Assembly: GCF_003071365.1 (NCBI RefSeq)
Contig: NZ_CP028960.1
Location: forward strand, 2,772,501-2,836,500
Source of the DNA: Methyloceanibacter sp. wino2
GTDB lineage: Bacteria > Pseudomonadota > Alphaproteobacteria > Rhizobiales > Methyloligellaceae
Reading direction: 5' to 3'
DNA: 64,000 bases
Shown: positions 16,831 to 50,857 of the stretch, piece after piece
Layout of the letters: every line of letters begins with the position of its first letter
How positions within the stretch are numbered: position 1 is the first letter of the stretch
Made by a program: the position numbers and the translations under genes
The notes under the pieces: model-generated
Told to the model about the DNA's origin: nothing
The model's database searches: none
The model's input: the letters and a program-made list of their open reading frames with translations, nothing else

Positions 16831-17209
16831 CGACCAGCAATGATCGAGAACCGTCGACCCTTAGAAAGGGCCGCAAATTTTCGGCAGTGTCAATAGCGCT
16901 ACGGCGTTTGCGACTGCGACGGAATGTTTCTCGCCGCCAGCGACGGTCTGTGCGGAATGAAGTCGTCGTCTGTTTTCGGCGACGTGATGGTGAGCGCCAT
17001 TTACGCTAGCTGCGCGCCGGGTTGGTCCGCTTCGTCGGTACAAGTGTACCGAGGATCACTGTGTTACGAGTGGGCGATCCTCGGAATACTGGATGATCGA
17101 GGGTACATAGACGTGCAAAAGGCCGGGCGGCTGTCGCTTATGGGGCGGGCTGCCAGATTTGGCTCGGCGGCAGCCACACTCCACAGCCAGACTTCGGCTT
17201 AACCCTCCA
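16831..17209. other. Gene-free stretch with a perfect palindrome
   Basis: About 380 bp between the riboswitch and the monooxygenase stop. Frames here are poor. It contains a perfect 7-bp inverted repeat, CGGTACA-AG-TGTACCG, at 17036-17051, which looks like an operator. The promoter of the riboswitch operon should lie in its left part (minus strand). Confidence 0.5.
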
Positions 17210-35159: not shown

Positions 35160-36491
35160 CTAGGACGACGCGCAAAGCGTTTGCAGTTTGACCAGCCGTT
35201 TGACGGCGACGGCCTTGACCGTCTCGTGAATGTCTTCGGAAAAAGGTGCGGGAAGGGCGCTTTCTACCGCGTCGATCGCATCGGCCGCCGTGTCCACCAC
35301 CTCTGCGAGCACGTGACGGCCCAGCGTCTCCGTCATTGCCGCGGTCTCGAGGAAGTGCTGCGCCTCGATATCTTCGATCCTGTGATGGCGTTCAGTGCCG
35401 ACGGACATGGCGAGCCGCGGCCGCAGGCCCCCTGCGGATCCGTTCGCAATGCTCGGCTCGACGGTCAGGATGTCGTAGAGGGGCGTCAGCCGAAACGTGC
35501 CGCCGTGTCCGAGAAAAACGCTGAAATTCTTGGCGTGTCCGTCGGTTGCGCCCGTCAGCCAGAACACGATTTGGGCTTTCAAAACGGCTGCCTGGTCCTC
35601 CGCCGGGGTTTCGCTTCTCTGCAGGAAGTCGAGAATCTGCGCCATGCCGGGTCCGCCTTGCCGTTCGTATTTTACCGTCGGATGGACCGATAGCGCCTGG
35701 CACATATCTTCTTGGTGGATACGGACGATCCGCCCGTCTTTGTCGACCTCCCGGTCGAACCGCTCCACCACAAGCGCCTTCGTGTCCCCAAAGGAATGGA
35801 TTTCCGCATTGGCCACGGACAGTCCGAAAGCCCGCGCAAGCTCGAGACAGTAGTATTCGTTTTCGATGCTGTTCGACAGATCGGTGCCCGTCGGCAGTTT
35901 TCCGATCTGGGTCTTCAGAATATGCGTCGTCGGGGTTGAGCCGTGCGGTTTGAACCAGCGGCCGTCGTGGCGCAGCAGGGCCGTTTTCTTCTGGGCTCCC
36001 GCCAGGGCAATACGAAACGGGTCGTCCGAGCGGATGCCGAGTGGAGTGTCTGGAAGACTCTGGAGCAGTGCTTCAAGTTCCGTGTCGCCTAGGGCGTCGC
36101 CGCTGATCTCGCCCGCGCCCGTTCCGCCGTCTTCGGGACCTTCGTCCTCAGCTGCGAACTGAAGTGCGCCCGCGCAGTCGTTGCCGATCGCCGCCAGCAA
36201 GCTGCACGTGTCGCTCCCCGGGGCGCCGACCGTCGCGGCGATCTCGCACCGCTGTCTTTCTGAATCGGGCAGCAGGTTGTCGAACACCGCCAAGACGGAA
36301 GCGCCGCTGTAGGGGGCTTCGCGCAGCGGAAGGGTCGTCGAAACGGGAGGGGCAAAAGGCCGGTTGAGCCAACGGGAATCGTAGCCGAACTGAATGGTCT
36401 CGTTTCCAGCATGGGTCAGATGTCCCACAACGCAGTTGTTCATCAGAACCCGCAAAGGGGGGCGGAGGTCGGAGTGCGGCACTACGAACAA
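35160..36491 (-). CDS. hipA: HipA-family kinase, no HipB partner seen
   Basis: The 443-aa protein has the HipA N-terminal subdomain (LRVLMNNCVVGHLTHAG, YDSRWLNRPFAPPVSTTLPL) and the kinase core: the GAQKKTALL P-loop-like region, HILKTQI with the lysine, CLELARAFGLSVANAEIH, the catalytic segment TGATDGHAKNFSVFL and the metal-binding YDILT. HipA kinases phosphorylate glutamyl-tRNA synthetase or related targets and slow growth; they are normally encoded just after a HipB repressor. No helix-turn-helix gene is found on either side, although site D and a palindrome lie upstream. It lies just outside the left end of the integrative element. Confidence 0.9.
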   Translation of the reverse strand: MFVVPHSDLRPPLRVLMNNCVVGHLTHAGNETIQFGYDSRWLNRPFAPPVSTTLPLREAPYSGASVLAVFDNLLPDSERQRCEIAATVGAPGSDTCSLLAAIGNDCAGALQFAAEDEGPEDGGTGAGEISGDALGDTELEALLQSLPDTPLGIRSDDPFRIALAGAQKKTALLRHDGRWFKPHGSTPTTHILKTQIGKLPTGTDLSNSIENEYYCLELARAFGLSVANAEIHSFGDTKALVVERFDREVDKDGRIVRIHQEDMCQALSVHPTVKYERQGGPGMAQILDFLQRSETPAEDQAAVLKAQIVFWLTGATDGHAKNFSVFLGHGGTFRLTPLYDILTVEPSIANGSAGGLRPRLAMSVGTERHHRIEDIEAQHFLETAAMTETLGRHVLAEVVDTAADAIDAVESALPAPFSEDIHETVKAVAVKRLVKLQTLCASS

Positions 36492-36930: not shown

Positions 36931-36962
36931 ATGGTGGGCGGTACTGGACTTGAACCAGTGAC
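36931..36962. repeat. attL: displaced 3' end of tRNA-Val
   Basis: These 32 bp are identical to 50781-50812, the 3' end of the intact tRNA-Val gene (T arm, acceptor and CCA). Identity stops exactly at both sides. This is the footprint of site-specific integration at a tRNA gene, the left copy being the fragment cut off. Confidence 0.9.
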
Positions 36963-37060
36963 ATGAGCGTTTTGATCGAAATCAAACCAGTGCATAGTGT
37001 TGCGTAAGACCACTGTTTTGCTTGTGTTATTTCATACATAGCGGATCATTGCCTCTCACG

Positions 37061-37104
37061 GGGCAACACGGCAGCGCACCTCAAATGTTGCCCACACGTT
37101 GCCC
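37061..37104. repeat. GTTGCCC repeats at the left end (possible integrase arm sites)
   Basis: GGGCAAC at 37061-37067 and GTTGCCC at 37087-37093 and 37098-37104 recur in an 11-bp rhythm. The same pair ATGTTGCCC...ACGTTGCCC is found at the right end (50705-50725). Repeats inside both ends are typical of arm-type binding sites of tyrosine integrases. Confidence 0.5.
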
Positions 37105-37141
37105 AGAAAGGGTCACTGGTAACGAGGGCACAGCCACTGGT

Positions 37142-38368
37142 ATGGCCGCCGACAAGCGCAAATTCTCGGATACGTTCCTTCGCAGTCTGCAATCTGCCCC
37201 GACAGGCCTGCGCGTTGAATTTATGGATACGGTTGTTCCCGGTTTCGGTGTGAGGCTGACCGACAAGGGACGCAAGACCTTCATCCTCTTGGCGCGTTAT
37301 CCCGGCAGCAACAACCCGACGCGTCGCAAGCTCGGCGAATACCCATCACTCAGCTTGGAGAAGGCACGGAAGAAGGCTCGGGACTGGATCGACCTCATCA
37401 AGGACGGGAAAGACCCGCGAAATGAGGAGGAGGCTCAGCGACGCGCGGAACAGCGCAAGCGTGATGATAGGTTTGAAGGGGTTGTCGAAGCGTACGTCAG
37501 TCGCGTTCTTCCCTCGCAGCGACGTGGAGACATTGTCGCGAGGGAAATGCGTCGGGAGTTCTGTGGCCGTTGGACTGGACGACCGATTAGCTCCATCGAG
37601 CGGCGTGATGTCATCGAAGCAATTAGCGAGGTCGTCGAGCGGGGTGCGACCTACCAAGCCCACAATCTATTCGGACATCTTCGTTCGTTCTTTAATTGGT
37701 GCATCGAAGCGGGCGATTACGGGCTTGAGCACTCGCCCTGTGATCGCATCCGACCGAACAAGTTGATAGGTGAACGCAAGTCACGCCAGCGGGTGTTGAC
37801 TGACGCCGAACTCCGAGCCTTCTGGATCGCAACCGGCGAGATCGGTTATCCGTTCGGTCCACTCTATAGACTGCTGCTTCTCACTGGCGCTCGTAAGAGC
37901 GAAATCGGAGAGGCGCGCGAACGCGAACTGGATAGGGTGAAGAAGGCGCTAGTTATCCCTCCCGAGCGCTTCAAATCAGACGCCACTCATATCGTCCCGC
38001 TGACTGACGAGGCCATGAAAGTGATCGATGGTCTCCCGGTCTTTGAGAAACCTAATTTTCTCTTCAGCACTTCGTTTGGGGTGCGACCCGTCTCGGGCTT
38101 CGCGAATGCGAAGGAGCGCCTAGATCGGCTGATGGCTGCCGAGTTAGGACGCCCACTGGACCCATGGCGAAACCATGATCTTAGGCGAACCATGCGAACC
38201 CAACTGGCTGCGCTGCGGGTCTCGGACACTATCGCGGAGATGGTAATTGGCCATGGCCGCAGGGGTCTTCAACGCGTTTACGATCAGCACAGCTACGAAC
38301 GAGAGATGCGCGAGGCCCTTGAGCTTTGGGCCGACCGCTTGCACGAGATTGTGACGACTTCAGCGTGA
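37142..38368 (+). CDS. int: Tyrosine recombinase / integrase of the element
   Basis: The 408-aa protein (ATG 37142; the frame is open further upstream through the GTTGCCC repeats, which is unlikely to be coding) has an arm-binding DUF4102-like start (KFSDTFLRSLQ, GFGVRLTDKGRKTFILLARY), a core-binding domain, and the catalytic domain with Arg in LLLTGARKSEIGEA, HDLRRT for H-x-x-R, GHGRRG for the next His, and Tyr in QRVYDQHSY. It would excise and integrate the island at the tRNA-Val gene. It lies next to attL, as expected. Confidence 0.93.
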   Translation: MAADKRKFSDTFLRSLQSAPTGLRVEFMDTVVPGFGVRLTDKGRKTFILLARYPGSNNPTRRKLGEYPSLSLEKARKKARDWIDLIKDGKDPRNEEEAQRRAEQRKRDDRFEGVVEAYVSRVLPSQRRGDIVAREMRREFCGRWTGRPISSIERRDVIEAISEVVERGATYQAHNLFGHLRSFFNWCIEAGDYGLEHSPCDRIRPNKLIGERKSRQRVLTDAELRAFWIATGEIGYPFGPLYRLLLLTGARKSEIGEARERELDRVKKALVIPPERFKSDATHIVPLTDEAMKVIDGLPVFEKPNFLFSTSFGVRPVSGFANAKERLDRLMAAELGRPLDPWRNHDLRRTMRTQLAALRVSDTIAEMVIGHGRRGLQRVYDQHSYEREMREALELWADRLHEIVTTSA

Positions 38369-40293: not shown

Positions 40294-40338
40294 CATGTAG
40301 AGCATCAGTTGTCCTAAGGACAACTGATGCTCTACATG
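40294..40338 (+). promoter_or_regulatory. Palindrome P3 covering the abiEi ribosome site and start codon
   Basis: Arms of 21 bp (left CATGTAGAGCATCAGTTGTC plus C) are perfectly complementary around TAA. In the RNA this forms a 21-bp hairpin at the very 5' end. Its loop side holds AAGGA (40316-40320) and the right arm holds the ATG at 40327, so translation should be blocked unless the hairpin is opened or cut. Confidence 0.8.
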
Positions 40339-41280
40339 GTGCCAACCCAAGCAGGCCATATGGCAGAGCAAATCCGAGCGCCGTTCCAAGATACAAAGCG
40401 CATGACGCTCTTGGGCGAAGCGCTAATGCGAAAGCTCGAAGCGTCCGGCAAACCATTGGTAGGAAACTACGAGATTTTTCGCCATCTCTGGGACATCTAT
40501 GCAGCTAGGGATGTGAAGTACCTTCGAGGAGACCTCCCGAGCCAAGACGTGCTTCGGCGCACTCGCAAACTGCTTCGCAGAGAAGGCGTAATCCGTGCGG
40601 ACAACGACTACACTAGCATGTGGCGAATAACGGCAGTCTCTGACAGTCCCGCCGACGACATCGTCTGTGTCGCCGATCCAAACTGTTATGTATCTCACCT
40701 TTCGGCAATGCAGAGATATGGCCTAACAAGTCGACGTCCAGAGGCATTGTTTATAACGCTGCCTGCGCCGACAGAGGTCAAACAGAGATTGAGAACGCGC
40801 GTTCGTGAAGACTTCGGCGACGCGATAGACAACAACGATATCTACATCGAACCCTTAAATGCGACGCATCACCCGCGCCGGGTTAGGGGTCGCCCCATCG
40901 ACACGTTCTCCACACGGTACTTTGGCGAGTGGCGGCAAATTAGAGGCTCATTCGTTCGCGTCGCCACTGTCGGCCAAACCTTTCTTGACATGCTTGAAGC
41001 GCCCCATCGCTGTGGCGGCATGCTCCACGTCTTGTCTACATGGAATGCACATGCTCGGGGCTACCTTGAGGAAATCATCACGCGAGTGAATACGGCTCCC
41101 AAGCCAATTCATAAGGTTCGAGCCGGTTACATATTAGAGGAGCAGTTGGGCATCGATGATCCGAGAGTGCTCGCCTGGAAGAAATATGCTCAGCGCGGGG
41201 GCAGCCGCGTTCTGGACCCCGGGGAGCCATTCGTTGACCACTATTCAGAAGATTGGATGATCTCAATTAATGTCGGCTGA
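40327..41280 (+). CDS. abiEi: AbiEi-type antitoxin / autorepressor
   Basis: The 317-aa protein precedes and overlaps (11 bp) an AbiEii toxin gene. It has an N-terminal winged helix-turn-helix (about residues 40-100: [34 protein letters not shown]) and the antitoxin C-terminal region ([38 protein letters not shown]). Type IV antitoxins of this kind repress the operon and counter the toxin without a stable complex in most cases. The ATG at 40327 has AAGGA 7 bp before it; ATGs at 40336 and 40360 are alternatives. Base composition is lower in GC than in the chromosome. Confidence 0.82.
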
Positions 41281-42169
41281 AAGTGAAGGCGACAACGAAG
41301 TCGTCGTAGATATCGCCGAGTGGGTTGAAAAAGCAAAGTCGGACCCGGAGGCCTACCTAGAACGTCAGGCTACAGAGGTTTTTCTGACGGCCTTAGGAAT
41401 TGCCGAGCCATTCAGCCATCAGATATTTCTTAAGGGCGGCATTCTGATGGGCGTTGTCTACCAAAGCCCGCGCCAAACGGGTGATATTGATTTCACCACC
41501 ATCATGGAGCCAACCCCTGAGATTGGCGACCAAATCAGCAATGCACTCGACGCCGCCTTTCCGCGCGCGGCTGCTGAACTTGGCTATCCCGATCTCCTGT
41601 GTGCAGTGCAGACATCGAAGTATCGTCCGGCTATGGAGAAGTTCCCGACTGCTGAAGCACCCGCACTGTTGCTGAAGATTGGCTATGCACGACGAGGGTC
41701 CCCGCAGGAACGCCATTTCCAACAGGGACGTGCGATAAACACCCTCGACGTTGATATCAGTTTTCGAGAGCCTGTCAGAGCAATCCAGATTGTCAAGTTC
41801 ACGGGCTCGTCTGGTCGAGTTCACGCATATTCTCTTTTCGACCTCATTGCGGAGAAGCTCCGGGCGCTGTTGCAGCAAGAACTCAGGAACCGCTTCAGAC
41901 GGCAAGACATCTACGATCTAGATGCGCTTCTGAATAAATTTGCTCTGGACGACGACGAGAAGCAAAAGCTGCATGAAACGCTCTTGGAGAAGTGCGCTGC
42001 AAGAAAGATAAACCCCAACGAACAATCGCTGTCGCAGCCTGAAATAGTCAGGCGAGCCAAGCAGGAATGGGACACACTCGGCCAGGAGCTGGCTGAAGTA
42101 CCCGACTTCGACGACTGCTTCTCACGCGTCGACGCCTTCTACCGGTCTTTGCCTTGGAAACGCGATTAG
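41270..42169 (+). CDS. abiEii: AbiEii nucleotidyltransferase toxin
   Basis: The 299-aa product has the DNA polymerase-beta-like nucleotidyltransferase motif of AbiEii/DUF1814: [20 protein letters not shown] followed by IDFTT (G-G then D-x-D), a second acidic strand near [10 protein letters not shown], and the lysine-containing [21 protein letters not shown] which is typical of the family. Such toxins transfer nucleotides to tRNA acceptor ends and stop growth, giving phage abortive infection. It overlaps abiEi and is the second gene of the type IV module. Confidence 0.88.
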
Positions 42170-42920: not shown

Positions 42921-43544
42921 CTAGGGTGCTTCTAGGCGAGCCACGATGCGCGCCAAATCTGCTGGTTCCCAAGCGTCACCCAACGCATGCTCGCAAAGAC
43001 TTTCTACCGAGCCGATGGCTTTGCTGTAGTCGCAACTAAATAGCTCTCTTGCCGTCACCGATTTCCCGTGATGCTTGCGGGTATACGTCCGGGGACTGCT
43101 GTACTCTGCAAGAGATGTTTGCGCCTTCGCCTCAACCCAGCCCGCTTTGTCGAATTTGCGTCGATAGATCAGTTGCCAGTCATCCGCGCCGCCATACTCA
43201 TCCTTGATCAGGGCATCCGCGCGTTCGCTGGCGAGCTGAGCGATCCCAATTTTGACAAGCCTCAGTTTGCGAGACACAGCAACGTAGACAAAGCCAGGCA
43301 CCTGGTGCCTCTTCCAATGGGCTACGCCTTGGGGGGAACATTCCACACAATGACCGGAGCTTAGACGAAGCCGGGCTGCATGACCCTTCTGGCACGGGCT
43401 GTCCACAAGCGCCAACGACTTATTCTGGCGCTTCAGTTCAATCTTCCAGTCCGAAGTGCGCATTCCCCGCGCATCAAGCACACTATCGACGGGCAATTTG
43501 TGTCTGCCCAAGCTGCGCAACTGATCATCGGTTAGCTTGAGCAT
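42921..43544 (-). CDS. Zinc ribbon plus T5orf172/GIY-YIG-like nuclease domain
   Basis: The 207-aa protein (ATG 43544, GGAGAGAAG upstream) starts with a polar region, then a possible zinc ribbon (DSPCQKGHAARLRLSSGHC, VECSP) and a GIY-YIG-type domain of the T5orf172/Mug113 group: PGFVYVAVSRKLRLVKIGIA, SERADALIKDEYGGADDW and, later, KAQTSLAEYSSPRTYTRKHH with ELFSCDYSKAI. Such domains are DNA nucleases or nickases frequent in phages and islands. It is on the opposite strand to the AbiE module and next to the recombinase gene. Confidence 0.7.
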   Translation of the reverse strand: MLKLTDDQLRSLGRHKLPVDSVLDARGMRTSDWKIELKRQNKSLALVDSPCQKGHAARLRLSSGHCVECSPQGVAHWKRHQVPGFVYVAVSRKLRLVKIGIAQLASERADALIKDEYGGADDWQLIYRRKFDKAGWVEAKAQTSLAEYSSPRTYTRKHHGKSVTARELFSCDYSKAIGSVESLCEHALGDAWEPADLARIVARLEAP

Positions 43545-43689
43545 TCTTCTCTCCTGGGATCGCATTGTCTCCCGCAAGAGTGATGTTCTCGACGCAAAAA
43601 ACACAAGGTAACAACACTGTGGTTGGCATGGTGGCCGCGAACATTCTCAGTTCGTGACCGCCCCTTAAGAAGGGCCCCCTGCCGAGGGA

Positions 43690-44364
43690 CTAGGCCAGCA
43701 TGCTGGCGACTGATTTGGCAGCATAGGGGCGTCCCCGCTCATTGACATAGCCGCACGCTGCCAGCTCCTTAGAGATTGCCCGCAACGACATCCGCCCGGC
43801 CTTCGGACGCTTCCTGCGGAGCTTGCGCGCAAGGGCGACAACTTCGGGATGCGTCTCCTGCAGAGGTTTGCGTCCCTCGCATCGCCCCTCGCTCTGCCGC
43901 TTGCGCTTCCGCGCGGCGGCGAGCTTCGCCACGACGCTTGCCTTCTCGAACTGCGCAATAGCTCCAAGCACCTGACGCACCAAAACAGCAGTTGGCGTAT
44001 CCTCCGTGAAGAAGTCTGGGGCCGACGCGGGGATGATCGCAATCCCGAGGTCTCGTAGCATGTCGTGACCGGCGAGCTGCACCGCGAGATCACGCGCAAA
44101 ACGGTCGGGGCTCTCTACAATGATTGTCTTAGCCCCGTTCGATGCCAATCGCTGGAGCATCTCAGCGAAGCCGGGTCGTTGGTCCACCAAATCGGCACCG
44201 CTGACCGCGCGGTCGTAGTACTCGTCCACGATCTGGAAGCCAGCCCGCTCAGCAAATGCCTCGATGGCGGCCCGTTGACGTTTGTCGCTGTCCTTGTCTG
44301 CGCCGACATTCGTCGCGCTCGAAGTGCGCAAATAGGCAACTGCGGGTTTCATTTGTTTCGACAT
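43690..44364 (-). CDS. Serine recombinase / resolvase
   Basis: The 224-aa product has the resolvase catalytic domain. The serine is in AYLRTSSATN (about residue 12), then DKRQRAAIEAFAERAGFQIV, the arginine motif IIVESPDRFARDL, and the long E helix QVLGAIAQFEKASVVAKLAAARKR in two parts. A short C-terminal helix-turn-helix follows (SLRAISKELAACGYVNERGRP). It may act as a resolvase or invertase on the island or be a remnant of another element. It diverges from the Ntn/SEC-C gene. Confidence 0.88.
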   Translation of the reverse strand: MSKQMKPAVAYLRTSSATNVGADKDSDKRQRAAIEAFAERAGFQIVDEYYDRAVSGADLVDQRPGFAEMLQRLASNGAKTIIVESPDRFARDLAVQLAGHDMLRDLGIAIIPASAPDFFTEDTPTAVLVRQVLGAIAQFEKASVVAKLAAARKRKRQSEGRCEGRKPLQETHPEVVALARKLRRKRPKAGRMSLRAISKELAACGYVNERGRPYAAKSVASMLA

Positions 44365-44592
44365 TACCTGCTTAAGTTCAATGGGATAGTCGCATAGTTG
44401 TAATTTAATCTCAAGATAAAGTAACACAAATACCGAATTTTAACAGCCCGGGTCAGATTTTGAGTGCGTGACAGGATGGTCAAAGTAGTAAGATAGTAGA
44501 TCACCACTTTGGGGTGCAACGGCCAACGGTCGAGCGGGGTCCAAGATGAAAAGTCAAATCGGCAAGCGGCGGCGCTTGGAGGGACTCCACCG

Positions 44593-45507
44593 ATGACAAT
44601 CATTATCGGGATTTGTACTTCGCAAGCCGTCCAAATGTTCTCAGACATGCGGCTTTCTTGGAACGGGGAGGTTCGTGACGATGAAACCGTCAAAGCATGT
44701 TTCTTCGAGTCTGGAGTCGCTCGTGTAATTTTCGGCTATACCGGGTTGGCAGAATGGAAGACCAATGATCCCGACACGTCATTCAATACTCTAGCGTGGC
44801 TGACAGGCGAAATATCCGAGTGTCTGGGACGCACCACGTCGATAAATGATTTGCTTCGTGAGCTTCGGGAACGCGCTTCAAACACATTCAATTCTCATCC
44901 CGCGTTGACGCAGCTTGCGCCTGAAAGACGCAGGCTGAGCGTCGTCTTCCTTGGTTATGAGTATCCTCAGCAAAACGGACCAGAGGAAGGTCGTCCTTTC
45001 TCCGCAGTTCTCTCAAATTTTGAAGATGTGGCCTCTGAGGTAAGGCACGACACTGCGCAGAGTGAATTTTTTCTGCATGTCAGGCCGTGTGATGAATCTG
45101 GTGCGCAGCAACTGTTGCTTCTCGGAGTCCAGGTGGTCTCTGACAGCAGGAAGGCGGAGCTAACTGCGCTGATCAAGGAAGGGAAACCGCCCAAAGCTCT
45201 GGCGGGGAAAGCTCTTCAAATAGTGGCGGAGGCGTCTGACAATCCCCGTGCGCGCGGTGCAGTTGGGCCAAACACCATGGAAGCGACCTTGTGGCCGATA
45301 CGGCAGAAGCCACCTCAGTCTATTTATCACTCTGCGACCGGAGGCGATAAGATTCATCTTTTAGGAATGGTCGAGCCCAATGGTTGGGCCATCGCCCGTA
45401 TTCAGTTGGTTACTCAGGACAAATTTCCCGGGCGACCGAATAGGAATGCGCCTTGTCCATGTGGAAGTGGAGTGAAGTATAAGCGCTGCCATGGTCGCAC
45501 TCATTAA
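44593..45507 (+). CDS. Proteasome/HslV-like Ntn hydrolase fused to SEC-C zinc motif
   Basis: ATG 44593 follows GGAGGGACTCC. The 304-aa product begins MTIIIGICTSQAVQMFSD. If Met is removed, the chain has Thr1, Asp17 (SDMR), Lys33 (ETVKAC) and Gly47 (VIFGYTG), which are exactly the positions of the catalytic and oxyanion residues of proteasome beta and HslV subunits. A later strand SVVFLGYEYPQ fits the fold. The C-terminus RNAPCPCGSGVKYKRCHG is a SEC-C zinc motif, as in SecA. It is thus a putative threonine protease with a metal-binding adaptor tail. It stands 82 bp before hsdM in a defence island and diverges from a recombinase. No ATPase partner is seen. Confidence 0.7.
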   Translation: MTIIIGICTSQAVQMFSDMRLSWNGEVRDDETVKACFFESGVARVIFGYTGLAEWKTNDPDTSFNTLAWLTGEISECLGRTTSINDLLRELRERASNTFNSHPALTQLAPERRRLSVVFLGYEYPQQNGPEEGRPFSAVLSNFEDVASEVRHDTAQSEFFLHVRPCDESGAQQLLLLGVQVVSDSRKAELTALIKEGKPPKALAGKALQIVAEASDNPRARGAVGPNTMEATLWPIRQKPPQSIYHSATGGDKIHLLGMVEPNGWAIARIQLVTQDKFPGRPNRNAPCPCGSGVKYKRCHGRTH

Positions 45508-45588: not shown

Positions 45589-47037
45589 TTGTACGAGAAC
45601 GCATTCAACAAAATCGAGCGAGACCTGCGGGCCGAGGATGGCATCGCCAATGAGCTGGATTACGTCGAACAGACCTCTTGGGTCCTGTTCCTAAAATATC
45701 TACACGACCTCGAAACGGAACGTCGCGATCGCGCGGAGCTCGATGGCGAAGATTACACTCCGATCATTGACGGCGAGTTCCGCTGGGATAAGTGGGCAGC
45801 CCCTACAAAGGATGGCGAATTCGATCACAACGCGGCACGGATCGGGAATGACCTGATAAAGTTTGTTGATCAGGAGCTGTTCCCGTACCTTGCGTCATTC
45901 CGGCAGTCTGCCACAAGCCCGCAGACGATCCAGTACAAGATCGGTGAGGTTTTTACAGAGCTGCGAAACAAGTTTCGCTCTGGCTACATTCTGCGCGATG
46001 TCCTCGAAGCCGTGGACGGCCTGTCTTTCAACACCCAGGCTGAGCGCCACGAGCTGTCCCAGCTTTACGAAACGCGCATCCGCCGCATGGGCAACGCGGG
46101 CCGCAACGGCGGCGAATACTACACGCCCCGCCCGCTCATCCGCGCCATGATCAAAGTCGTCGATCCAAAAATTGGTGAGACGATTTATGACGGAGCAGTC
46201 GGCTCTGCGGGCTTCCTCTGTGAGGCCTATGACTACTTGCGCACCGACGAGATCTCCGCGTCCGAATACGAGACCCTGCAAACCAAAACCTTCCTCGGTC
46301 AGGAAAAGAAGGGCCTCGCCTACATTATCGGGATCATGAATATGGTCCTGCACGGGATCGAAGCGCCGAACCTGATCCATTCCAATACGCTCAATGAGAA
46401 CGTGATGGATATTCAGGAAAAGGACCGCCACGACATCATCCTCGCCAATCCTCCATTCGGTGGCGGCGAACGGCGCGAGGTGCAGCAGAACTTCCCGATC
46501 CGCACGGGCGAGACAGCCTATCTGTTCCTGCAACACTTCATTCGCAAGCTGAAGGCAGGCGGACGCGCCGCCGTGGTGATCAAGAACACCTTCCTCAGCA
46601 ACACCGACAACGCCTCCATCGCACTGCGCAAAGAACTTCTGGAGGCTGCTGAACTGCACACGATCCTCGATTGCCCGCAAGGCACGTTCCAGGGCGCTGG
46701 TGTGAAGACCGTGGTGCTGTTCTTTGAGAAAGGCGCAAGAACTCGGGACATCTGGTACTACCAGCTCAATCCTGGCCGCAGCCTTGGGAAGACCAGCCCG
46801 TTGAATGACGACGATCTGACGGAGTTTGTCGAGCTACAACGCACCCGCGCAACGGGGCCGCACAGCTGGGTCGTCAATCGTGCCGATTTGGACGAGGAGA
46901 GCTACGATCTGTCGGTTAAGAACCCCAACGCGCCTGAGGCCGAGCTCCTGCGCAGCCCCGAGGAGGTCATCGCTGACATGCTGGCGCGGGATGCCGAGAC
47001 GGCACAAATCCTCGAAGATATTCGGAGGACGCTTTGA
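45589..47037 (+). CDS. hsdM: Type I restriction-modification methyltransferase subunit HsdM
   Basis: The 482-aa protein has an N-terminal helical HsdM domain (LDYVEQTSWVLFLKYLHDLE), the AdoMet-binding loop TIYDGAVGSAGFLCEAYDYL and the adenine-methylation motif IILANPPFGGGERREV. It methylates adenines in the HsdS target. Translation starts at TTG 45589, some 12 bp after AAGGAT. Its stop overlaps the hsdS start by 4 bp. The three hsd genes form one operon. Confidence 0.95.
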   Translation: MYENAFNKIERDLRAEDGIANELDYVEQTSWVLFLKYLHDLETERRDRAELDGEDYTPIIDGEFRWDKWAAPTKDGEFDHNAARIGNDLIKFVDQELFPYLASFRQSATSPQTIQYKIGEVFTELRNKFRSGYILRDVLEAVDGLSFNTQAERHELSQLYETRIRRMGNAGRNGGEYYTPRPLIRAMIKVVDPKIGETIYDGAVGSAGFLCEAYDYLRTDEISASEYETLQTKTFLGQEKKGLAYIIGIMNMVLHGIEAPNLIHSNTLNENVMDIQEKDRHDIILANPPFGGGERREVQQNFPIRTGETAYLFLQHFIRKLKAGGRAAVVIKNTFLSNTDNASIALRKELLEAAELHTILDCPQGTFQGAGVKTVVLFFEKGARTRDIWYYQLNPGRSLGKTSPLNDDDLTEFVELQRTRATGPHSWVVNRADLDEESYDLSVKNPNAPEAELLRSPEEVIADMLARDAETAQILEDIRRTL

Positions 47038-48254
47038 GGGCTGCGGTAGAAGCTTCGTGGGCGGTCAAACCGCTGGGTGAACTGTGCCGCATTGAGCTTG
47101 GCAGCACTCCTGCACGAAAGAGTGCGGCAATGTGGGACCCAGGCCGGAAGACAGAAAACGTCTGGCTGTCAATCGCCGATCTTCCGCACAGCCTTCACGC
47201 CGTTGTGACAGACAGCAAAGAGTACGTTTCTGACCTAGCCGCCGAGAGCATGCGAGTGATCCCTCGGGGAACCCTCTTGGTCAGCTTCAAGCTGACTTTG
47301 GGAAGGCTTGCGTACGCTGGCCGCGACCTTTTTTCAAACGAGGCTATAGCCTCGCTTCTCGAAATCGATGAACAGCGAATTTCAAAGGAGTTCCTATATT
47401 GGGCCCTGACTGCGTTTGACTGGGACAAGGCTGCTGAAGGTGATCAGAAAGTTAAGGGAAAGACGTTAAACAAAGCAAAGCTCAAGAAGATACCGATCCC
47501 GTTTCCTGCACTCGAAGAACAGCGACGGATTGTTGCTGTGCTGGATGAGGCCTTCGAGGGCCTGGCCCGCGCGCGTGCCCATGCAGAGGCCAACCTCAAA
47601 AATTCGCGTGAGTTGTTCTCCGCGTCGTTGCGCTCGCTATTCTCGGATAACAGTGAGCATTGGCCTTTACGAAACATCGCGGATGTTTGCTCCAATTTCG
47701 GTAGGGGCAAGTCGAAGCATCGCCCGCGCAACGACCCCCGTCTTTATGGCGGCGATATGCCATTTATCCAGACAGGGGACTTGAGCCGCGCCGATCACTT
47801 TCTTAGTGACTTTACACAGACCTATTCCCCTGCAGGCATAGCTCAAAGCCGTGTTTGGCCCAAAGGGACTGTCTGCGTCGCGATAGTTGGTGCAACAATC
47901 GGCGAGAGTGCAATTTTAGAATTTGAAGCATGCTTTCCCGACAGCATAATCGGAATGATCCCTCATCCCGAGAAGGCCGATCCGGAGTTTCTCGAGTTTC
48001 TGCTGCAATTCGTCAAGGCGGATCTAAAGGAAGCTGGCAAGGGCAGTGCCCGAGACAATATTAACCTGCGAACCTTCAGTGATCGGCTGTTCCCGATACC
48101 GAACTTGGAACTGCAATTTTCCGCAGTTGAAAAGATTTCAAGTTTAAATAAGGCGTCGAGGGAATTGGCAGGGCTGTACTCCGAAAAGCTCCATGACATC
48201 GACGATCTCCGGCAATGTCTTTTGCAAAGAGCCTTTGCGGCCGAGTTGGCATGA
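47034..48254 (+). CDS. hsdS: Type I specificity subunit HsdS
   Basis: The 406-aa protein has two target-recognition domains, each opened by a short motif (AVKPLGELCRIELGSTPARK; WPLRNIADVCSNFGRGKSK) and each followed by a long helix that spaces the half-sites (IPFPALEEQRRIVAVLDEAF; ELQFSAVEKISSLNKAS). It sets the bipartite DNA target of the complex. It starts at TTG within the hsdM stop overlap. The recognition sequence cannot be read from the protein. Confidence 0.93.
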   Translation: MRAAVEASWAVKPLGELCRIELGSTPARKSAAMWDPGRKTENVWLSIADLPHSLHAVVTDSKEYVSDLAAESMRVIPRGTLLVSFKLTLGRLAYAGRDLFSNEAIASLLEIDEQRISKEFLYWALTAFDWDKAAEGDQKVKGKTLNKAKLKKIPIPFPALEEQRRIVAVLDEAFEGLARARAHAEANLKNSRELFSASLRSLFSDNSEHWPLRNIADVCSNFGRGKSKHRPRNDPRLYGGDMPFIQTGDLSRADHFLSDFTQTYSPAGIAQSRVWPKGTVCVAIVGATIGESAILEFEACFPDSIIGMIPHPEKADPEFLEFLLQFVKADLKEAGKGSARDNINLRTFSDRLFPIPNLELQFSAVEKISSLNKASRELAGLYSEKLHDIDDLRQCLLQRAFAAELA

Positions 48255-48271: not shown

Positions 48272-50599
48272 ATGAGCATTCACGATGAAACCGAAGCCGA
48301 CACTCGCGCCGAGCGCATAGACCCCGTCCTTGCGGCGGCTGGCTGGGGTAAGAACGGCTCTAGGGTCCGTCGTGAAGTTATCTGCCCTGGGCGCATCCAA
48401 TCAGGCGGCACACGTGGTAAAGGGTTGTCCGCTGATTACGTCCTGATCCACAAAGACCAGAAGCTTGCAGTGCTGGAAGCCAAGCGCGCAGGCGTCAGTC
48501 ATCGCAACGGGGTTGGTCAGGCCAAGGACTACGCCACCCGTCTGGGCTCGCGCTATGCTTACGCCTCCAACGGGCTGAACTGGTATCAGATCGACATGGC
48601 CAGCGGGGCCGAGGGCGATATGGACTTGCCCTTCCCGACGCCCAACGAGCTTTGGGACCGGACCTTTGCCGATCACAACGATTGGCGCGAGCGTTTTGGT
48701 GCCGTGGATTTTGAAACTGATGGCGGCAAGTGGGAGCTGCGCTACTACCAACACAAGGCCATCACGGCAGCACTTGAGGCCGTAGCCAAGGGCGACCACC
48801 GTATCCTGCTGACGCTCGCGACTGGCACTGGAAAGACATCCATTGCGTTTCAGATCGCGTGGAAGCTGTTCCAGTCCAAGTGGAACCTCTCTGGCGAACC
48901 GGTTCGCCGTCCCCGTATCTTGTTCCTGGCCGACCGCAACATTCTCGCTGACCAGGCCTACAACGCTTTTTCCGCCTTTCCGAACGATGCGGTAACAAGG
49001 ATTGACCCTGGCACAATCAGGAAGAATGGCGGCAAGCCGCCTAAGAACGCGAGCCTATTCTTTACGATCTTCCAGACCTTCATGACCGGCGAAAGTGAAC
49101 CGGTCTATATGCAGTACCCACCCGATTTCTTCGATTTTATTGTGATCGACGAATGCCACCGCGGCGGGGCCAAGGACGAAAGCGAGTGGCGTCAATTACT
49201 CGAATACTTTGAGCCAGCCGCGCAACTTGGCCTGACCGCCACGCCCAAGCGCAAGCACAACGCCGACACCTACGCCTATTTCGGCGAGCCCGTATACACC
49301 TACGCTCTGCGAGATGGCATCGAGGATGGCTTCCTCACGCCTTTCAAAGTACGTCAGTTGGCCAGCACCATCGACGAATATGTCTATGATGGCAGCGACG
49401 AGCTGATTTCGGGTGACATTGAAGAAGGCGAGGCCTTCACGGAAGGCGATTTCAACACGCGGATCATAATCGAAGAACGCGAGCTCAGCCGCGTGAAGGA
49501 ATTCATGAGTCAGATCGACCAGCGTCAGAAGACGATAGTTTTCTGTGCTACGCAGGACCATGCAGCGTTAGTGCGAGACCTCATCAATCAGGTGAAGCAC
49601 AGCACTCACCCGCACTATTGTCACCGCGTTACTGCTGATGATGGCGCAGTGGGCGAGCAGCACCTTCGCGATTTTCAGGATAATGACAAGACAATCCCCA
49701 CGATCCTGACGACCTCCCAAAAGCTATCAACGGGCGTGGATGCGCGGAACATTCGCCACATTGTGTTGATGCGCCCCATCCGTTCAATGATCGAGTTCAA
49801 GCAAATCATCGGACGCGGCACGCGTACCTATGAAGGCAAAGATTTTTTCACCATCTGGGACTTCGTGAAGGCGCACGAAAACTTCAACGATCCTGAGTGG
49901 GACGGCGAGCCGCTGGAGCCCGAACCGCCGGGAGAACCACACCCACCCATTGGGGGACCTGAGCCCGAACCAGGCGACCCAGGCGAACCGGGCGAAGATG
50001 GCCCCGAGGAGCCGCCGCGCGAGAAGATTGTCGTAAAGTTGTCGGACGGCAGTTTACGGCGCATCGCCTACATCGCTTCCACGACATACTGGAGTCCCGA
50101 AGGCAAACCGATTTCGGCTATGGAGTTTCTTGAGCGGCTCTTCGGCGATCTATCTGGGTTGGTCGCGGACGAAGACCAACTTCGCGCGATGTGGAGTGAT
50201 CCAGACAACCGTGAGCATTTCCTACAGCAACTGTCAGATCGCGGGTATGATAAGGACAGGCTCGACGACATTCGTCGGCTTGTAGATGCTGCGGACAGCG
50301 ACCTCTTTGACGTGCTTAGCTACATCTTGTTCACAACTGAACCTAAGACGCGACATCAGCGAGCAGAACAGGTTCGTAAGGATGGCGTCGCCGACGCGGA
50401 TGGAGAAATGAAGGCGCTGCTTCTGGCCATCCTGGCGGCATATGAGGAGCGCGGCGAAGCGGAACTGGCCACCAACAAACTCGGCACATTCATGACGGCA
50501 CGCTACGGCAGTGTCAGTGAGGGCAAGGAGAGATTAGGTGGGCTAGACATGGTAAGGGACGCGTTTCGAGCAATGCAGACGACCCTCTATTCAGGTTGA
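48272..50599 (+). CDS. hsdR: Type I restriction endonuclease subunit HsdR
   Basis: The 775-aa protein has an N-terminal nuclease domain (SADYVLIHKDQKLAVLEAKR, with the D...E-x-K core), then an SF2 helicase with Walker A LTLATGTGKTSIAF, DEAD-box-like FIVIDECHRGG, LGLTATPKRKHNADT and IIGRGTRTYEGKDFFTIWD. A Pro/Glu/Gly-rich linker (about residues 548-585) separates it from the EcoEI_R-type C-terminal domain that binds HsdM/S. It translocates and cleaves unmethylated DNA. The ATG lies 17 bp after hsdS. It is the last gene of the island. Confidence 0.95.
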   Translation: MSIHDETEADTRAERIDPVLAAAGWGKNGSRVRREVICPGRIQSGGTRGKGLSADYVLIHKDQKLAVLEAKRAGVSHRNGVGQAKDYATRLGSRYAYASNGLNWYQIDMASGAEGDMDLPFPTPNELWDRTFADHNDWRERFGAVDFETDGGKWELRYYQHKAITAALEAVAKGDHRILLTLATGTGKTSIAFQIAWKLFQSKWNLSGEPVRRPRILFLADRNILADQAYNAFSAFPNDAVTRIDPGTIRKNGGKPPKNASLFFTIFQTFMTGESEPVYMQYPPDFFDFIVIDECHRGGAKDESEWRQLLEYFEPAAQLGLTATPKRKHNADTYAYFGEPVYTYALRDGIEDGFLTPFKVRQLASTIDEYVYDGSDELISGDIEEGEAFTEGDFNTRIIIEERELSRVKEFMSQIDQRQKTIVFCATQDHAALVRDLINQVKHSTHPHYCHRVTADDGAVGEQHLRDFQDNDKTIPTILTTSQKLSTGVDARNIRHIVLMRPIRSMIEFKQIIGRGTRTYEGKDFFTIWDFVKAHENFNDPEWDGEPLEPEPPGEPHPPIGGPEPEPGDPGEPGEDGPEEPPREKIVVKLSDGSLRRIAYIASTTYWSPEGKPISAMEFLERLFGDLSGLVADEDQLRAMWSDPDNREHFLQQLSDRGYDKDRLDDIRRLVDAADSDLFDVLSYILFTTEPKTRHQRAEQVRKDGVADADGEMKALLLAILAAYEERGEAELATNKLGTFMTARYGSVSEGKERLGGLDMVRDAFRAMQTTLYSG

Positions 50600-50780: not shown

Positions 50781-50812
50781 ATGGTGGGCGGTACTGGACT
50801 TGAACCAGTGAC
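50781..50812. repeat. attR: 3' end of tRNA-Val gene
   Basis: 32 bp identical to 36931-36962. Here they form part of the intact tRNA gene, so the element restores the tRNA at its right end. Confidence 0.9.
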
Positions 50813-50857
50813 CCCTGCGATGTGAACACAGTGCTCTACCAGCTGAGCTAACCGCCC
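50782..50857 (-). tRNA. tRNA-Val (CAC)
   Basis: The minus strand folds as a 76-nt tRNA with encoded CCA. The acceptor GGGCGGT pairs with ACCGCCC, the D arm is GCTC-AGCTGGTAGA-GC, the anticodon stem CTGTG/CGCAG encloses TTCACAT with anticodon CAC (valine, GUG codons), and the T arm is CTGGTTCAAGTCCAG. It serves as the integration site of the island. Confidence 0.96.

Follow-up and report, generated by a model that had tools for sequence, protein, structure and literature searches.

Many proteasome-like homologues without an assigned function were described in 2021, some of them with unidentified C-terminal domains, and the parts of that survey on which we draw report no genomic contexts suggesting a specific function for the new homologues (PMC8665760). 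The same parts number the proteasome catalytic triad and oxyanion-hole position as residues 1, 17, 33 and 47, and they describe a distant actinobacterial proteasome homologue, DAH, which is marked in Proteobacteria, Actinobacteria, Cyanobacteria, other bacteria and phages, and which appears to have an additional C-terminal domain matching no known structure (PMC8665760). In a separate field, the metal-binding domain of SecA is stated to bind SecB, and similar domains may belong to further components of the Sec system (PMC8076867, in the part used here).

The gene that we discuss here brings these two subjects together, as a proteasome-like domain followed by the SEC-C motif. An initial sequence-only reading of the locus, made without searches, knew of no described system of this design, which is not quite right, since proteasome-like homologues were described in 2021, as the part of the survey cited here makes plain (PMC8665760). 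The terms SEC-C, zinc and SecA have no occurrence in the main text of that survey (its supplement being outside this scope), and a SEC-C/Ntn-hydrolase fusion is not among the PMC literature matches listed, a scope outside which supplements, preprints and most subscription journals fall.

The gene and its protein

The window, by which we mean the whole stretch of 64,000 nucleotides from Methyloceanibacter sp. wino2 that was analysed, carries at 44593..45507 (+) a coding sequence of 304 aa, opening MTIIIGICTSQAVQMFSDMRLSWNGEVRDDETVKACFFESGVARVIFGYTG..., in which a proteasome-beta-like Ntn hydrolase domain (approximately aa 1-279) is followed by a C-terminal SEC-C motif; the observation of these two parts in one reading frame is confirmed. 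An RBS-like GGAGGG (44578..44583, +), claimed from the start as a strong ribosome site, does indeed lie 9 nt 5' of the ATG, and the proposed active-site numbering after removal of Met is borne out in the ORF. The codons concerned are those of Thr1 (residue 2; 44596..44598, +), the predicted nucleophile once Met is gone, Asp17 (residue 18; 44644..44646, +) and Lys33 (residue 34; 44692..44694, +), all three assigned on their conservation in 25/25 alignment rows, and Gly47 (residue 48; 44734..44736, +) at the oxyanion-hole position, which is Gly, Ala or Ser across the family.

The tail had likewise been recognised by inspection, and the SEC-C motif (aa 284-302; 45442..45498, +; core CPCGSGVKYKRCH) turns out to be a full-length match to Pfam PF02810 (E 5.5e-10, 39.4 bits against a cut-off of 20.4), with all four metal-ligand residues of the CxC...CH pattern present. 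SecA zinc-peptide structures match it too (E 3.1e-6 to 2e-5 in PDB sequences), as do YchJ peptides, and the identity of the ORF as a plain SecA fragment was considered and rejected. Above threshold, the tail alone is recognised by Pfam, PADLOC and PDB sequences; NCBIfam gave tail matches under its cut-off and one weak DsbG match (E 0.18), and the Ntn part searched alone against PHROGs and Pfam drew a blank. The Pfam Proteasome family PF00227 does not match the protein, and a PF00227 search of its own genome missed this gene and found two others, HslV-like and Anbu-like by eye. On a side note, the PADLOC E2 and E1-E2 models match window 44593-45504 in the SEC-C tail (approximately profile positions 168-191), so that the same tail may occur in some ubiquitin-like conjugation proteins of bacteria.

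Predicted fold

From an alignment of the window protein and 20 relatives (21 sequences, without P0001 and without L100, which contains unread bases), AlphaFold2 produced a model with a mean pLDDT of 88.6 and a pTM of 0.86, falling in confidence in the tail (block means 67, 72 and 43); from the single sequence it reached a pLDDT of 37, which is useless. The modelled strands and two helix pairs follow an order that fits S1-S12 and H1-H4 of proteasome beta (labels assigned by eye). Foldseek returned 423 PDB matches at E<=0.001, the best 50 of which are all 20S proteasome, HslV or Anbu (E 3e-7 to 9.3e-6), with TM values among those 50 of 0.46-0.67 by target length and only 0.35-0.47 by query length. 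Among viral structures the best match is a Gordonia phage relative (E 6.5e-15), and ten further matches reach E 0.001, one of them annotated as proteasome beta.

Profile comparison was less forthcoming. The family profile had no proteasome among its matches in PDB sequences, and hhalign with the single HslV-like and Anbu-like sequences of the same genome was not significant (E 0.2), the non-significant Anbu alignment nevertheless being in register at Thr1, Asp17, Arg19 and Lys33. Since sequence profiles fall short of HslV and Anbu, kinship rests on the predicted fold and the active-site register. We consider a proteasome-like fold with a catalytic Thr almost certain. The proposal of a proteasome/HslV-like threonine hydrolase, for which structure prediction and fold search had been named as a check and another fold as the contrary outcome, is thus strengthened: the predicted fold is Ntn-type and proteasome-like, no other fold emerged and the catalytic residues are conserved.

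Conservation of the active site

How far that conservation can be trusted depends on how the relatives were collected. In the 25-row alignment and tree, the 19 rows that came from the first genome-contig DNA pattern, as well as L100, had been selected for Thr1, Asp17 and Lys33. Excluded were an interrupted gene (L042), two genes identical to L027 (L044 and L046) and L050, which diverges from its relatives before its end as if frame-shifted, and L134-L138 were translated after the tree and stand outside the 25 rows. Thr1, Asp17, Arg19, Gly24, Lys33, Thr49 and Gly50 are invariant in this alignment, and Gly120, Asn141, Phe158, Gly177 and Gly224 are present in 24/25 rows. The first genome-contig pattern did not select for Thr49, Gly50 or any of these five 24/25 positions, and the second pattern, which brought in L100, required Thr49 and Gly50.

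Because the DNA pattern selected several of the invariant residues, the better test lies in relatives found without it. Eight distinct relatives came from tblastn and profile searches that demanded no motif (L012, L017, L072, L076, L134, L135, L136=L137 and L138), and all eight keep Thr1, Asp17 and Lys33 by eye, with a longer loop ahead of Lys33 in L136 and L138. Since the profile had been derived from rows bearing the motif, full independence can be claimed for just the two tblastn relatives, the plasmid and phage proteins L012 and L017. Conservation of the triad among homologues, which had been offered as a second check, therefore holds in 25/25 rows and in 8/8 unselected relatives, and loss of these residues was not seen. 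Position 47 is more varied, being Gly in the window protein and divided in the family between Gly (11 rows), Ala (11) and Ser (3), a variation despite which the backbone at this position may still form the oxyanion hole.

Relatives and their distribution

Single-sequence searches with the Ntn part found nothing in plasmids (E 0.01), phages (E 0.1), viral contigs or genome contigs, and no true relative was seen by single-sequence searches of four overlapping genome sets (of 151, 385, 397 and 398). Whole-protein matches in genomes, besides the gene itself, were dismissed as relatives, for none begins before residue 235 and all end in SEC-C, most of them in frames of about SecA length; two further matches were set aside, L010 as a frame with four stops and L011 as overlapping an HDAC-like ORF (by eye).

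A tblastn search at E 10 turned up one weak match (E 1), located on a plasmid of Mycobacterium marseillense; its protein reads MTLLQTLFSNDRIVQVSDRRLTLNGEVFDDEYTK...GFTG. Four plasmid tblastn matches were examined, with H1 as the genuine relative; H14 is SecA, and H4 and, by its annotation, H41 are larger SEC-C proteins. Used as a query, the plasmid relative led to nine Gordonia phage records at E 8e-36. In Gordonia phage Nymphadora the relative is gene 30 (L016:3001-3870), annotated hypothetical and lying between minor tail genes and the helicase region. Viral contigs yielded nothing to P0001 as sole query and nothing to a first DNA pattern, and alignment A2 found there the Gordonia phage contig alone. 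A degenerate DNA pattern, built from the window, plasmid and phage sequences and checked on viral contigs, was run on genome contigs, where it picked out 30 stretches, 23 encoding relatives and 7 due to chance. A second pattern picked out 7 (five chance, one known phage and one new relative, L100, on a viral-collection contig), and profile searches contributed L072, L076, L134, L135, L136=L137 and L138.

Relatives are extremely patchy in their distribution over many bacterial groups, with profile-search frequencies of 1/249, 2/146, 8/128 and 1/93 genomes, each count including the genome searched around, and this distribution is compatible with that described for DAH. The relative on the Mycobacterium plasmid sits two genes from a recombinase, and the viral-collection contig with L100 also carries an integrase. 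An identical 933-bp gene occurs in records labelled Mycobacterium helveticum, M. nebraskense and M. gordonae (L027, L044 and L046), which points to recent transfer. One relative, of 713 aa (L093:9270-11411, genome G1122), has the Ntn domain followed by apparent TPR repeats by eye, and this TPR-like stretch may be a second kind of C-terminal module for recruitment, attached to the same type of enzyme.

The SEC-C branch

SEC-C is a repeated architecture in this family and, as the sequence-only reading had supposed for the window protein, a genuine fusion to the Ntn part: it is present in 9/25 relatives (the window protein, L022, L023, L026, L028, L032, L041, L076 and L100), mostly on one branch, with Glu in place of one Gly in L032. 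The named SEC-C rows span Pseudomonadota, Campylobacterota, Bacteroidota, Chlorobiota and Planctomycetota. It is absent in the other 16/25, including the two Nitrobacteraceae that are nearest to the window protein by branching, and the Gordonia phage and plasmid relatives are also without it. Mapped on the tree, the presence or absence of SEC-C takes two changes, where shuffling gives 7.6 and not one of 500 shuffles is as low.

The nine SEC-C rows together with L049 and L031 are set apart from the rest by a branch whose support, 94/96, is just below the starred level. In L049 and L031 the SEC-C tail is replaced by a basic end containing RGKGGKH. The nine alone form no clade in the best tree, and constraining them together was not rejected (p-AU 0.066); details of the tree are unsure because L076 and L100 have long branches. 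One gain and one loss would be the simplest reading of this history. The relative L076/L097 (genome G1240) is also worth recording for a long extension beyond its SEC-C, which includes a Cys-rich stretch.

A mobile element in tRNA-Val

In the window, the Ntn gene is cargo of a 13.85-kb element that sits in tRNA-Val together with an integrase, AbiE and hsdMSR. An att-like 32-bp direct repeat marks the left end (36931..36962, +), and its second copy (50781..50812, +) lies within the tRNA-Val (cac) gene (50782..50857, -) that is the integration target. Rightwards from the left end follow a tyrosine integrase (37022..38368, +; Arm-DNA-bind_3 and Phage_integrase), AbiEi (40327..41280, +; PADLOC E 2.1e-105), AbiEii (41270..42169, +; Pfam 4.9e-28, PADLOC 2.2e-108), a T5orf172-domain protein (42921..43604, -) and a serine resolvase-type recombinase (43690..44427, -). 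Beyond the Ntn gene come hsdM (45589..47037, +), hsdS (47034..48254, +) and hsdR (48272..50599, +), with 81 nt on the same strand between the Ntn stop codon and the start of the hsdM ORF. Both the mobile island with AbiE and the position directly before hsdMSR were thus read correctly from the letters.

The element has a GC content of 55.8%, against 62.7 and 63.8% in two outer stretches. Among 17 genomes searched, G004 has the most similar tRNA-Val flank, and its tRNA-Val joins directly to window position 16996, so that this genome lacks 17.0-50.8 kb of the window; in G005 the DNA after tRNA-Val is unlike the window, and together these two genomes show the tRNA-Val site to be variable. The G004 gap is of 17.0-50.8 kb, yet the window shows a single att-like repeat pair, spanning 13.85 kb. 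Just beyond the att-bounded element lies a gene for a HipA-like kinase (35160-36491, -).

Neighbourhoods elsewhere

Whether defence genes keep company with this gene in other genomes was judged from ORF lists around 23 relatives (L077-L098 and L100), leaving out the interrupted L042 locus (L099) and taking neighbours by coordinate at L080, where ORF calling missed the focal gene. The control consisted of 17 stretches of the same genomes with 120 ORFs, at up to eight genes each against up to six per focal locus, a bias that works against enrichment.

Of the relatives, 6/23 (L077, L079, L080, L084, L096 and L098) have an RM-type or DUF262 gene no more than three called genes away, against 0/17 controls; the one-sided Fisher p is 0.026, in a category chosen after viewing the list, and rises to 0.11 once the mad2 match in the controls, whose model is of methylase type, is added to the RM-type count. 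Counting every PADLOC match instead gives at least 7/23 relatives against at most 6/17 controls, which shows no enrichment (7 vs 5: p 0.61), the focal count being a lower bound because single-protein PADLOC scans cover 15/118 focal neighbours. The 118 focal neighbours gave 113 PADLOC models, several per protein and among them PDC-M37B (E 4.7e-39; protein of origin not traced); 115 control ORFs gave nine model matches (five PbeA models, MzaA, mad2, HTH_VI and SduA), and of five further control ORFs one (L120) matched Pycsar-cyclase models. Pfam counts GmrSD_N/DUF262 in 3 focal neighbours, Eco57I in 2 and N6_Mtase in 2, and of the families that it counts at least twice in the 118, none is AAA+.

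A conserved linked gene was sought around the relatives and none was found. AbiEii adjoins L082 and T5orf172 is near L095, both being families that the window also holds, and CcdB adjoins L078; by eye, five loci (L083, L085, L086, L087 and L092) have housekeeping-like surroundings and a clpB-like gene adjoins L081. Two mycobacterial loci, L080 and L096, both have the Ntn gene and integrase ORFs that closely resemble each other (by eye, with Pfam for the L080 copy), with defence cargo that differs: UvrD-like and IIG/DrmMI-like proteins and a DpdE-like helicase in the former, DUF262 and a methylase-like ORF in the latter. The company of defence genes elsewhere is suggestive only, as is the defence role first proposed; the RM-type/DUF262 enrichment is lost when all PADLOC matches are counted (at least 7/23 against at most 6/17).

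How the enzyme might work

Methionine aminopeptidase removes Met before Thr, and Ntn hydrolases use a free N-terminal Thr, so that in a protein starting Met-Thr this aminopeptidase should expose Thr1. With these residues in place and the fold as predicted, Asp17 and Lys33 would activate Thr1 for the cleavage of a peptide or amide bond, an activity that we infer, and the enzyme is probably a hydrolase that acts on proteins. With no propeptide in the protein, and with neither a partner gene nor an AAA+ unfoldase turning up repeatedly beside its gene, it is most likely substrate access that limits activity. Such access would most likely be given by the SEC-C tail, docking on a partner that could be SecB, the ribosome or client proteins; by analogy with SecA, we favour a docking role for the tail with reasonable, though far from complete, confidence.

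In this way the tail might bring the enzyme to chains that are nascent, bound to SecB or exposed in some other manner. The gene travels as cargo, on integrative elements, on phages and on at least one plasmid, and mobile DNA may retain it because the targeting of such chains would matter under phage or stress attack. It would then most likely be an accessory conflict or stress gene, on evidence that is suggestive only. Taking these strands together, our best reading, which we rate at about an even chance, is an Ntn hydrolase of proteasome-like kin, stand-alone and mobile, that is brought to its partner by its tail. A role in phage or mobile-element conflict we advance tentatively, as possible but on the doubtful side, and a narrower form of it, in which a single-gene mobile anti-phage or anti-element protease would use SEC-C to sit on SecB or the ribosome and cleave new foreign or signalling proteins, is a long shot.

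What else it could be

The alternative that survives best, although still somewhat unlikely, is a protein quality-control enzyme that clears stalled, misfolded or pre-secretory proteins via SecB or the ribosome, the islands being merely its carriers. This would sit well with the binding of SecB by the SecA metal-binding domain and with the suggestion, not peer reviewed at the time, that YecA with its nearly identical domain is a SecB interactor (both from the part of PMC8076867 used here), as well as with the several relatives that lie amid housekeeping-like genes or, in L081, beside a clpB-like gene (by eye). It is hard to square with extreme patchiness, carriage on a plasmid and in phages and genes that are identical across species, or with a host that already has HslV- and Anbu-like genes.

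Unlikely, to our minds, is a Thr1-dependent enzyme that is no protease, such as a specific amidase or a connectase-like protein ligase, perhaps monomeric. Connectase does show that the family includes a ligase (PMC8665760, in the part cited), and no AAA+ family recurs in the neighbour tally, but direct evidence is lacking and our model keeps helices at the H1-H4 places (by eye), whereas connectase is described in that source as being without H1 and H2 (PMC8665760).

We give still less weight to the idea that the phage or element is itself the beneficiary of the gene, which might for instance eliminate defence proteins of the host. Homologues in nine Gordonia phage records, on a plasmid near a recombinase and on an integrase-bearing viral-collection contig are what such a gene would lead one to expect, but the Gordonia phage and plasmid versions lack SEC-C and most relatives were found outside recognisable phages.

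The short distance of 81 nt to hsdM on the same strand raises the further idea of a fixed accessory subunit of the adjoining type I restriction system, for instance a guard that degrades HsdR, and HsdR is indeed controlled by ClpXP proteolysis in E. coli. By eye, hsdMSR stands beside the gene in none of the relatives' ORF lists examined, so the Ntn gene probably has no fixed place in this RM operon, and we have rejected such a subunit as very improbable. Chance resemblance without any Ntn hydrolase, which could appeal to a domain recognised by no sequence library searched, is next to negligible in the face of the AlphaFold2 fold, the PDB fold matches and residue conservation that extends to unselected relatives.

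Significance and comparison with known systems

We think that the proposed stand-alone mobile hydrolase with a docking tail merits attention since the SEC-C branch gives a concrete handle, in the form of a defined docking motif, on a proteasome-like family that is rich in function-unassigned enzymes. In the window, a small mobile element carries a member of this branch next to genes for restriction and abortive infection, and the branch would offer a test of whether mobile DNA uses proteasome-type proteolysis in its conflicts.

Islands with AbiE and type I RM systems resemble this one in being the same mobile-element cargo as the window Ntn gene, but neither system is known to include the gene as a component, and no relative was seen beside hsdMSR. 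With the C-terminal tail of SecA, YecA and YchJ the protein shares the CxC...CH metal motif at its C-terminus; those proteins differ in bearing SEC-C on an ATPase or on proteins of unassigned function, and not on an Ntn hydrolase.

HslV is alike in modelled fold and in the numbering of the catalytic triad, but the window protein is without significant sequence similarity to it (hhalign), no HslU-like ATPase is present among the eight window neighbours scanned with Pfam, and the host genome has a separate HslV-like gene. Anbu shares the predicted fold and the non-significant hhalign register at Thr1, Asp17, Arg19 and Lys33, but the model of the window protein has no long C-terminal helix (H5) after its last strand, sequence similarity is again not significant and a separate Anbu-like gene exists in the genome. 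We have rejected an HslV or Anbu orthologue.

Closest of all is DAH, which in the part of the survey used here has a proteasome-beta-like fold, Thr1, Asp17 and Lys33, and no propeptide (PMC8665760), features shared with the window protein, in which the fold is predicted; the difference lies in the SEC-C tail, which goes unnamed in the main text of that survey. The Ntn gene thus appears to belong to a known kind, the proteasome-like homologues (PMC8665760), within which, with DAH compared by description, its SEC-C branch appears to be new.
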